The position numbers and the translations under genes were made by a program. A stretch of DNA of 44,847 nucleotides from an uncultured Ruminococcus sp. (GTDB lineage: Bacteria > Bacillota > Clostridia > Oscillospirales > Acutalibacteraceae): the NCBI GenBank assembly GCA_902768825.1, contig CACXMR010000011.1, positions 1 to 44,847 of the forward strand, in the 5' to 3' direction. Positions 3,781 to 7,150 of this stretch are shown here, piece by piece; the first letter of the stretch is position 1, and each line of letters begins with the position of its first letter. The notes beneath the pieces were generated by a model, which was not told where the DNA came from, ran no database searches, and saw only the letters and a list, made by a program, of their open reading frames with translations.

Positions 3781-4572
3781 TCACATTCCCTGACTGCCGA
3801 GAATCTCGTTCATGATGTCCTCAGCACTCGGTGCCTGCTCGGATTTATCCTTCATTATCGAATCCCTTACCTTTTGCATACGATCATCGAGAGAAGCACT
3901 TACGTTTGCACAGTCGATAAGCTCTCTTGAAAGATCCTCTAACTTCCTGGGATCAATATTTTTCTTATACTTGAGCTTATGCTCCAGATTTGCCCAGAAA
4001 TCCATGGCTATTGTGCGAAGCTGTACCTCCACAAGCACGTCCTTTTTGCCCTGCTCCAAAAAAACAGGTATAGACACTATGAGATGCAGACTTCTATAGC
4101 CGCTGGGCTTCGGATTTTCGATATAATCCTTCCTATCTATAAGAGTCACATCGTCCTGACTCAGCAGACACCTTTCCAGCCTGTATATATCCTCCTTGAA
4201 GGAACACACTACCCGCACACCTGCAATATCACGGATGTTTTTTTCGATGGATTCAAGACTGCGGGGAAGATTCTTGCGGATGAGCTTCCTCATGATGCTG
4301 TAGATATCCTTTACTCTGGAAACGATATAGACAATGGGATTGCCGTCATAGATGAGAGAAAACTGATTGTTCAGCACGTTGAACTTTGTCTCGATCTCCA
4401 TGATCGCACAGGAATAGGTGTCCAGAAAGCTTTCAAAGGGTATCGTGTGCTCCTCCACAAGATCAAGTATCCTCTCGTCATCCACAAAAAGTCCGCGTCT
4501 GCTTTTTACCATATCCAGCGCTAATTTTTCAGCTCCGTCACTAAGAACCAGCTTCTTTTCATTGTTGTTCAT
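3781..4572 (-). CDS. relQ: RelA/SpoT-domain small alarmone synthetase (RelQ/YjbM type)
   Basis: GTP/GDP pyrophosphokinase that would make (p)ppGpp from ATP and GTP or GDP in the cytosol; it lacks the HD hydrolase, TGS and ACT domains of long RelA. It has 263 residues. The ATG at 4572 is preferred because GTGGAGG lies 5-12 bases before it; an in-frame GTG at 4584 overlaps that site. The synthetase domain spans about residues 55-215: RSLESIEKNIRDIAGVRVVC (substrate pocket, 104-123), NPKPSGYRSLH (153-163), EVQLRT (182-187) and DFWANLEHKLKYK (191-203). These match the RelQ/YjbM group better than RelP. The first ~45 residues and the last ~35 are variable. It lies 25 bases after copA on the same strand and may be cotranscribed with it. 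The symbol is by family and not by proven orthology. Confidence 0.88.
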   Translation of the reverse strand: MNNNEKKLVLSDGAEKLALDMVKSRRGLFVDDERILDLVEEHTIPFESFLDTYSCAIMEIETKFNVLNNQFSLIYDGNPIVYIVSRVKDIYSIMRKLIRKNLPRSLESIEKNIRDIAGVRVVCSFKEDIYRLERCLLSQDDVTLIDRKDYIENPKPSGYRSLHLIVSIPVFLEQGKKDVLVEVQLRTIAMDFWANLEHKLKYKKNIDPRKLEDLSRELIDCANVSASLDDRMQKVRDSIMKDKSEQAPSAEDIMNEILGSQGM

Positions 4573-4597
4573 TTGTGCCTCCACTTCCTTTTTTGGC

Positions 4598-4807
4598 TTA
4601 CTCTATGGAGCATACCTTGTAATCCTTGTCCTCTACCGCCTTCCTGAGAACCTCATCCGGCACTTCCTCACAAAGGGTCACTATCGCATTCTTCTCAGTG
4701 TGACTCACTGCGGCACTCTCCACACCCTTAACGGCTTCAAGAGCCTTTTTTACTGCAGCCTCACAGTGGGGACACATCATCCCCTCGATGATCATTGTTT
4801 TTTTCAT
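4598..4807 (-). CDS. copZ: Possible separately initiated CopZ-like copper chaperone inside copA
   Basis: The last 69 codons of copA form a complete heavy-metal-associated domain of normal CopZ length. It begins MKKTMIIEG, has MxCxxC as MMCPHC (residues 10-15) and ends at the copA stop. An in-frame ATG (4807-4805) has an excellent Shine-Dalgarno, GGAGGAA (4814-4820), 6 bases upstream, all within copA coding sequence. Seen: the motif, the start and its ribosome binding site. Inferred: that ribosomes initiate here to release a free chaperone alongside the fused form. Alternatively the site is a relic of an earlier separate copZ gene that became fused by loss of the copA stop codon. Confidence 0.5.
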   Translation of the reverse strand: MKKTMIIEGMMCPHCEAAVKKALEAVKGVESAAVSHTEKNAIVTLCEEVPDEVLRKAVEDKDYKVCSIE

Positions 4808-7150
4808 GGCACGTTCCTCCGTTTCTTCTATGTTGATGTTTATCTGTTCAAGCTCTGAGCTTGTGATCCTCTTTCTTTTTGGTCTGTCGTGCTTTGGTGA
4901 ATACAGTCTGAAAAGGTTGAGCCTCAACGCATTGGAAATAACAAAAACACTGGACATACTCATCGCAGCAGCGCCCAGCATGGGACTCATACTGATGCCG
5001 ATGGAATAATATGCACCTGCAGCCACAGGAATCAGCAAAACATTATAAAACAGTGCCCAGAACAGGTTTTCCTTGATGTTCCTGTAGGTCTTTGACGAAA
5101 GCCTCACAGCTGCCGCTGCATCCGAAAGCCGGCTTTTCATCAGTACTACATCCGCTGCATCAACAGCTACATCAGCACCTGCGCCGATAGCCATGCCCAC
5201 ATCTGCCGCTGTCAGTGCCGGAGCGTCGTTTATGCCGTCTCCCACCATTATGACCCTGCCCTTTTCAGAGAGCATACTTACTATGCTGCCCTTCTCCGCA
5301 GGTCTGACTCCGGATATGACCTTGTCCACACCCGCCTGCCTACCGATAACGGCAGCCGTCCTTTTGTTGTCTCCTGTCAGCATGACTACATACAGTCCAC
5401 GGCTTTTAAGCTGGGATATTGCTGCTGCGGAATCCTCCTTTATCACATCTGCCACAGCAATGATACCGAGGAGTCTCCCGGCCCTTGCAAAGAGCAGGGG
5501 AGTTTTTCCCTCATCGGACAGCGCATCCGCCCTATCCCTTATGTCACGACTCACCGCTATCCGTCCCGAAACAAATCTCAGACTTCCGCCGATGATCTCC
5601 TCACCCGCCTGCACGGCGCTGACGCCGTTGCCGGAAAGCTCACGGAAATCACTGGTTTCAAAGGGCATCACGCCCCTCTCATCAGTGCAATCGTTTATGG
5701 CCGCAGCAAGGGGATGATCGCTCTTTTTCTCAAGGGAGCAGGCAGTTTTGAGCAGAGTCGTTTCATCCGACCCTTCGGCGGGTATGATGTCCGTCACCAC
5801 AGGTCTGCCCTGGGTAATGGTGCCCGTTTTGTCAAGCACAATAATATCAGCCCGTCCCGTCTCCTGAAGTGCCTCCGCTGTCTTAAACAGTATTCCGTTT
5901 TTTGCCCCGACCCCGTTGCCAACCATTATTGCCACAGGTGTTGCAAGGCCAAGGGCACATGGGCAGGACACCACCAAAACACAGATTCCTCTTGCAAGCG
6001 CCATGCCCACAGAAGCTCCTGTCACCAGCCAGATGATCGTCACTATCAGTGCAAGCCCCATTACCGCCGGCACAAAAAAGAGGGATATACTGTCTGCGAG
6101 CCTTGCCACGGGAGCCTTAGTCGCAGCCGCATCGCTGACCATAGCTATTATCTCCGAGAGAGTAGTATCCTCACCGACTCTGGTTGCCCTGCATTTCAGA
6201 TAACCGGAACGGTTGATGGTGGCTGAATATACGCTGCTGCCTTCCGATTTGTCCACCGGTATGCTCTCACCGGTAAGAGCCGATTCATCTACCGCACTCA
6301 TGCCCTCTATGACAACACCGTCCACAGGCACGCTGTCTCCCGCCCTCAGGACAAAAACATCTCCCTGCCTTACCTCCTCCACGGGAACACAAAGCTCCTC
6401 GCCGTCACGAATAAGCCTTGCGGTCTTTGGTGCCAGACTCATAAGTCCTCTCAGCGCATCCGTCGTCCTGCCCTTGGAGTAGGCCTCCAGGGTCTTGCCC
6501 AGAGTGATAAGGGTCAGGATCATCGCCGCAGATTCAAAATATAGCTCCTTCATCAGTCCGGCAGCATATTCGCTCTCGCCTCTGCGCAGCGCATCGGTCA
6601 TGATAAAAAGCACCACTGTACTGTAAACGAAGGACACGCCCGCTCCCATGGCAATCAGAGTATCCATATTGGGCGAGAGATGCATAAGCCCACGGAAGCC
6701 GCTGACAAAGAATTTCCTGTTGATTACGATTATTATTCCGGACAGAATGAGCTGCAAAAGACCCATAGCCACGCAGTTTCCGTCAAGCAGCGGAGGCACC
6801 GGAAAACCCAGCATACCGACCCCCATGGAAAAATACATGAGTATCAGCAAAAACACTGCTGACGCCGCCAGACGTCTTTTCATCTTAGGTGTCTCATTAT
6901 CCCTGAGCAGCTCCTCATCACTCGCTGAGCGGGAGCCTTCTTTTTTTCTGTCCGACTTGGGGGCAGCGCCATAGCCGGCTTTTTCCACCGCCCTGATTAT
7001 CTCGCTATCATCGGCACTTCCCTCGACACCCATCGAGTTTGTCAACAGGCTGACCGCACATTCCGTCACGCCCTCAACACCTCTGACCGCCTTTTCTACT
7101 CTTGCCTGACAGGCAGCACAGCTCATCCCTGTAACATTGAACTGCTTCAT
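4598..7150 (-). CDS. copA: Copper-exporting P1B-type ATPase with C-terminal CopZ-like domain
   Basis: Membrane ATPase expected to export Cu(I). It has 850 residues. ATG 7150 is chosen because GAGGGG lies 10 bases upstream and it starts directly at the metal-binding domain; a start at 7180 would add 10 residues. Domain order: N-terminal HMA domain with GMSCAAC (8-14); membrane helices; actuator TGES (293-296); CPC metal site (396-398) in SCPCALGLATP; phosphorylation motif DKTGT (440-444); HP (479-480); GDGINDAPAL hinge; a YN pair and MSMSSV in the last helices, characteristic of the Cu(I) class. Unusually, a second HMA domain (GMMCPHC) occupies the last 69 residues after a linker, and looks like a complete CopZ chaperone. 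No copper regulator gene is adjacent. Confidence 0.95.
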   Translation of the reverse strand: MKQFNVTGMSCAACQARVEKAVRGVEGVTECAVSLLTNSMGVEGSADDSEIIRAVEKAGYGAAPKSDRKKEGSRSASDEELLRDNETPKMKRRLAASAVFLLILMYFSMGVGMLGFPVPPLLDGNCVAMGLLQLILSGIIIVINRKFFVSGFRGLMHLSPNMDTLIAMGAGVSFVYSTVVLFIMTDALRRGESEYAAGLMKELYFESAAMILTLITLGKTLEAYSKGRTTDALRGLMSLAPKTARLIRDGEELCVPVEEVRQGDVFVLRAGDSVPVDGVVIEGMSAVDESALTGESIPVDKSEGSSVYSATINRSGYLKCRATRVGEDTTLSEIIAMVSDAAATKAPVARLADSISLFFVPAVMGLALIVTIIWLVTGASVGMALARGICVLVVSCPCALGLATPVAIMVGNGVGAKNGILFKTAEALQETGRADIIVLDKTGTITQGRPVVTDIIPAEGSDETTLLKTACSLEKKSDHPLAAAINDCTDERGVMPFETSDFRELSGNGVSAVQAGEEIIGGSLRFVSGRIAVSRDIRDRADALSDEGKTPLLFARAGRLLGIIAVADVIKEDSAAAISQLKSRGLYVVMLTGDNKRTAAVIGRQAGVDKVISGVRPAEKGSIVSMLSEKGRVIMVGDGINDAPALTAADVGMAIGAGADVAVDAADVVLMKSRLSDAAAAVRLSSKTYRNIKENLFWALFYNVLLIPVAAGAYYSIGISMSPMLGAAAMSMSSVFVISNALRLNLFRLYSPKHDRPKRKRITSSELEQININIEETEERAMKKTMIIEGMMCPHCEAAVKKALEAVKGVESAAVSHTEKNAIVTLCEEVPDEVLRKAVEDKDYKVCSIE

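Follow-up and report, generated by a model that had tools for sequence, protein, structure and literature searches.

A putative internal translation start in copA that may release a free CopZ-like chaperone in Clostridia

In E. coli, a single copA gene yields both the copper pump and a free CopZ-like chaperone, CopA(Z), by programmed frameshifting (PMC7558416; PMC9548414). CopZ in other systems is a chaperone of ~70 residues that is often encoded in the same operon as copA (PMC7558416). In the type I-B, I-C and I-D CRISPR systems, Cas11 is made from cas8 by internal in-frame translation, with a standalone gene as the alternative (PMC13199841). In-frame internal initiation of part of a protein (Cas11) and dual output from copA by frameshifting are already known, and in the open-licence literature, at the level of titles and abstract openings of the papers listed, we found no report of internal initiation in copA/copZ.

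Here we analyze the copA gene of an uncultured Ruminococcus sp., located in a 44,847-nt stretch of DNA (the window), and compare it with copA loci from related genomes. An earlier note on this DNA had suggested that its copA message could give two products, a fused ATPase and a free chaperone. Our comparison points to the same reading: one copA mRNA would yield the fused ATPase and, through internal initiation, a free CopZ, to which we assign a probability of roughly 0.86.

The copA gene and its C-terminal domain

The copA gene lies on the minus strand at 7150..4598, with its TAA stop codon at 4600-4598, and encodes 850 aa: a P1B-type ATPase that exports Cu(I), with a CopZ-like domain fused to its C-terminus. 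Its product matches two models of Cu-translocating ATPases, TIGR01511 (554.8 bits, cut-off 397) and TIGR01525 (601.6 bits, cut-off 346.25), and does not reach the E. coli CopA equivalog NF007952 (609.6 against a cut-off of 1316). Pfam recognizes E1-E2_ATPase, Hydrolase and two stretches of HMA, one HMA domain at each end of the protein; the N-terminal one, with the motif GMSCAAC, is encoded at 6965..7144 (minus strand). A membrane segment carries the CPC metal motif, which is a mark of the Cu class of P-type ATPases and appears in the copA translation within VVSCPCALGLATP.

The C-terminal domain is encoded at 4598..4807 (minus strand; 69 codons plus stop), and no stop codon interrupts the copA frame across it. 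It matches Pfam PF00403 (HMA) with 51.4 bits (cut-off 24.8) over profile positions 1-62 of 62 and contains the MxCxxC motif as MMCPHC, in agreement with the earlier description of the last 69 codons of copA as a full-length CopZ. Its PDB relatives named CopZ include 2qif, 1k0v and 6ff2. Since the domain does not reach the curated NCBIfam cut-offs for CopZ (NF047957, 57.5 against 85; NF033795, 46.1 against 91; NF033794, 40.7 against 95), we describe it as an HMA domain working like CopZ.

A variable linker of 37 codons (4808..4918, minus strand) separates NALRL, with which the last membrane segment ends, from the putative internal start. Reading the minus strand directly, we find in the copA frame the Shine-Dalgarno (SD) sequence GGAGGAA (4814..4820), the 6-nt spacer CGTGCC (4813-4808) and an ATG (4805..4807), exactly as first noticed. 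The predicted second product, whose 69-codon translation begins MKKTMIIEGMMCPHC, would start at this ATG and end at the copA stop codon.

In the host genome, a search at E<=10 found no further CopZ-like gene, its hits being both copA domains and a single weak match (E=0.65), and searches for CsoR (PF02583) and for a CopY-type repressor (PF03965) found neither. Two further features of the window were recorded. A RelA/SpoT-type (p)ppGpp synthetase gene (3781-4584, minus strand) starts ~25 nt or less from the copA stop codon on the same strand and is probably co-transcribed with copA. A 440-aa open reading frame contains in-frame GFGGYQQN(N/S)QPYQN repeats at 2480-2700 on the plus strand.

Conservation of the internal start and tests against chance

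Genes resembling copA (E<=1e-100) were found in 60 of 64 genus genomes and, among the matches listed, in at least 167 of 200 family genomes and at least 275 of 299 phylum genomes. We read 299 copA loci (62 from the genus, 108 from the family set, 80 from a scan of named genomes and 49 from the phylum set), which are best matches rather than a random sample and come from a sampling that favours fused genes. A script called 277 of them fused, 14 separate, 5 without a recognized C-terminal HMA domain and 3 without the anchor motif; three duplicates were dropped to leave 274 distinct fused loci, and two of the loci scripted as lacking the C-terminal HMA (L137 and L138) prove fused by eye. The distance from NALRL to the HMA domain ranges from 20 to 118 codons in 238 relatives. 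At one locus (L038, genome G035), copA ends in NALRLNLKKI with no CopZ domain recognized, and its nearest relatives on the tree are fused.

An SD sequence with an ATG or GTG occupies the site in 255 of the 274 distinct fused loci, under a rule that accepts either codon at a distance of 20 to 5 codons from the last HMA glycine, upstream of it, with an anti-SD energy <= -4.5; this count includes three loci (L100, L112 and L113) that are carriers by the energy rule only and two doubtful ones (L039 and L061) with a GTG five codons before the HMA, which are grouped as lacking the start in the genome comparison below. A stricter rule (anti-SD <= -6, narrower window) retains 225 of 274, and in 210 of 274 the eighth codon ahead of the HMA glycine is an ATG. 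By set, the site is present in 48/61 genus, 95/100 family and 36/37 phylum loci, and in 76/76 of the named set, which was gathered through an alignment beginning at the internal Met. Outside that set, carriers are found in all 20 family codes and in 89 of the 93 genus codes; within it they include Lachnospiraceae, Oscillospiraceae, Anaerovoracaceae, Clostridiaceae, Eubacteriaceae and one Solobacterium. The internal SD is about as strong as that of copA itself, with medians of -8.9 (n=274) and -7.7 (n=260), respectively.

We compared this signal with several expectations. In a matched control, with one ATG tested per place in an identical window, an anti-SD energy <= -6 kcal/mol precedes 182 of 210 ATGs at codon -8 versus 413 of the 6956 in-frame ATGs found elsewhere in these open reading frames. 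When the best start of 11 codons is taken, 224 of 274 loci reach <= -6; with this rule, random places do so in 297 of 5480 cases. Permuting the upstream codons predicts 27 of 274 such sites (maximum 38 in 50 replicates) and synonymous recoding predicts 108 (maximum 129 in 200 replicates), against the 224 observed; applied gene by gene, the synonymous test is weak, with p<0.05 in only 38 of 274. The synonymous expectation is this high because the linker residues (KE, EE, KG) favour SD-like codons, which shows that part of the SD signal sits in the choice of amino acids. Since the 12 residues preceding the site are only 16% identical and the SD core occurs in all three codon phases (179, 67 and 8 loci, with one locus lacking a core), what is kept is the nucleotide motif.

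The 210 loci with an ATG at codon -8, unselected for SD, show an information peak at -15 to -9 of 0.5-1.6 bits, with mostly 0.2-0.5 bits elsewhere. The spacing between SD and ATG is 7.4 +/- 1.3 nt, a spread bounded by the 3-11 nt search window. The folding energy of 40-nt segments is -1.4 at the ATG versus -3.5 to -8.8 at other offsets, and relative to shuffled sequences, compared at two offsets only, it is +0.24 at the ATG (61 loci) and -1.19 at +90. The internal signal is more than chance, widespread in relatives, kept at the nucleotide level and tied to a start codon.

Other HMA domains served as controls. Among 19 second N-terminal HMA domains, none has a Met at codon -8 and two have one at codon -9, one of these with a strong SD; a start with an SD <= -6 precedes 2 of the 19. 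Three copA genes (L096, L244 and L348) carry two tandem C-terminal HMA domains. A strong start precedes only the last of these domains in L096 and L348, while L244 has SD-like signals ahead of both and, like the two N-terminal domains with a Met at codon -9, counts against the internal-start reading. Overall, the internal start is shown to belong to the last C-terminal HMA domain.

The conserved SD and ATG, the tight spacing, the use of all codon phases, the weak structure at the start and the controls, which mostly lack a start, are comparative evidence in support of a selected internal start giving two products, as the earlier note proposed. Under this reading, ribosomes that begin at the copA start codon would produce the full ATPase with its tethered CopZ-like domain, as the open frame predicts, and others would bind the SD within the linker and initiate at position 4807, giving a free, soluble CopZ of 69 residues. 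Judging from CopZ elsewhere, the free form would shuttle Cu(I) across the cytosol to the pump, and tethering would hold one chaperone domain in place there. Both products are probably useful, since the continuous frame and the internal start are both kept. Linkers shuffled at constant composition would remain free of stop codons with a mean probability of just 0.067 (264 linkers).

We also compared genomes lacking the start with genomes carrying it for a separate copZ. Among the matches listed, a standalone CopZ-like gene is present in 6 of 23 genomes without the start (G006, G149, G245, G154, G171 and G238) and in none of the 70 that carry it (Fisher p = 0.00013), or in 1 of 70 (p = 0.0008) if a doubtful protein of G030 (L289) is counted as CopZ. 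The 23 comprise 15 genus genomes plus G149, G064, G245, G190, G154, G488, G171 and G238; the 70 comprise 44 genus genomes plus 12 and 14 from two further searches. The HMA matches reached about E=3e-9 in the genus and 1e-8 in one further search, and weaker copies may escape. Because the comparison was designed after the first case, its classes were set by eye, and G171 and G238 belong to the same genus and probably represent one origin, we take it as supporting evidence only. No separate CopZ-like gene appears among the matches listed for 17 of the 23 start-less genomes, and free CopZ is therefore not indispensable.

Of 37 standalone HMA stretches that we read, one, L283 (G006), was counted as CopZ. 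Three others (L300, L311 and L313) are membrane-anchored CCG proteins, two (L308 and L316) are pieces of copA, and most of the rest belong to another family with the motif GMMCxMC and the tail PYEKK, to which a protein of G190 with the motif GMMCSHC (L395) was also assigned by eye. This second small HMA family, which takes in most of L284-L320 together with L446, L456 and L459, has a tail like PYEKK or YKKRG, is unlike CopZ and is common in the genus and the family. Eight short open reading frames, of G093 (two), G193, G237, G169, G098, G064 and G488 were likewise read, and none is CopZ-like.

Alternative readings and the history of the fusion

The SD-like sequence could instead cause a translational pause after the last membrane helix that aids insertion of the pump, with the ATG incidental and the fused protein as the only product. 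Ribosomes pause at SD-like sequences, and the signal does sit in the linker just past the last membrane segment of a membrane protein. However, the distance to the membrane segment is variable (middle half 58-103 nt), whereas the strongest SD of the linker stays near the ATG, with a middle half of 7-9 nt over 200 loci. In 163 of 200, the strongest 6-mer anywhere in the linker falls 4-11 nt upstream of the ATG, against 17.6 expected if evenly placed. A pause also needs no start codon, yet 202 of 285 strong SD 7-mers in the linker (71%) are followed by one 3-11 nt on, compared with 1140 of 4125 (28%) elsewhere in the open reading frame. Lastly, the strong signal of L096 and L348 precedes the last HMA domain and not the first one past the membrane. 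We consider a pause highly improbable as the explanation. An internal promoter, as an alternative to internal translation, seems less likely, since a search with a simple consensus yielded no sigma-70-like site from 5900 to 4800 on the minus strand.

The site could also be a relic of neighbouring copA and copZ genes that had lost the intervening stop codon many times and not long ago, with the former copZ start yet to decay. Fourteen of the 299 loci are indeed separate neighbours, and those inspected have an SD and ATG before copZ that could be inherited upon fusion. In a FastTree phylogeny built from the CopA core (293 rows), where several deep supports are low, the architecture nonetheless changes only 4 times, and the start state changes 14 times, with L096 scored as lacking the start before its second HMA domain was seen and L039 and L061 scored as carrying it. 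The signal persists while the residues before it are only 16% identical. The separate pairs L149, L337 and L172/L198/L202 branch from among fused loci in a sampling that favours fused genes and, from their position on the tree, look like secondary splits. A relic is thus slightly harder still to credit than a pause. Because the fusion seems old among the genes sampled and these separate pairs look like secondary splits, the idea raised earlier that the site may be a clue to how copA and copZ become fused is not supported.

The earlier note had named relatives that keep the fusion while the site is destroyed as evidence against two products. Such loci exist (19 of 274, plus L137 and L138). They are mostly scattered tips and pairs on the tree, together with one small Ruminococcus clade around L021-L065, and among the 23 such genomes searched are the 6 noted above with a separate CopZ-like gene, against 0 of 70 that have the site. 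Within that clade, five loci (L021, L023, L026, L037 and L065) have lost the ATG and retain GGAGAT, a few nt ahead of an ATT or ATC codon where the start once stood, which represents either decay or a non-standard start.

Least credible of all is that purine-rich, charged linkers simply yield SD-like sequence ahead of a structural Met without initiation, since A/G-rich linkers and the 108 of 274 strong sites from synonymous recoding alone fit this, but codon permutation gives 27 (maximum 38) against 224, the Met at codon -8 is missing from 19 of 19 second N-terminal HMA domains (2 have one at -9), and the position of the strongest SD, near the ATG in 163 of 200 loci against 17.6 expected, is left unexplained.

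Comparison with known systems

Taking internal initiation as the preferred reading, we think it fairly likely, with less assurance than for the two products themselves, that much of Clostridia has a free copper chaperone without a gene of its own, made inside copA and kept with the fusion since an early ancestor. The arrangement would parallel the E. coli frameshift by convergence, with the ratio of tethered to free chaperone set by competition between elongating and initiating ribosomes. If true, selection arrived at two unrelated ways of drawing both a pump and a chaperone from one copA gene during translation, by frameshifting in E. coli and by internal initiation in Clostridia, and annotation that stops at the long open reading frame would miss the chaperone in many gut species. 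The natural losses, double domains and secondary splits described above allow a direct test of how free and tethered chaperone are used.

Among described systems, E. coli copA is alike in that pump and free CopZ-like chaperone both come from a single copA gene, the free product being predicted in our case. CopA(Z) of E. coli is the N-terminal domain. It is released by -1 frameshifting, whereas here the C-terminal domain would be released from a putative second start in the same frame; an E. coli-type slippery site is unneeded, since the C-terminal domain is already in frame. Cas11 and cas8 share the logic of a larger protein one part of which is additionally produced by itself from an in-frame internal start, a standalone gene being the alternative, but concern an unrelated protein and pathway. 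Neighbouring copA and copZ genes provide the same two activities, and an SD and ATG precede copZ in the separate loci inspected; there, however, a stop codon lies between the genes, and no tethered chaperone is made.
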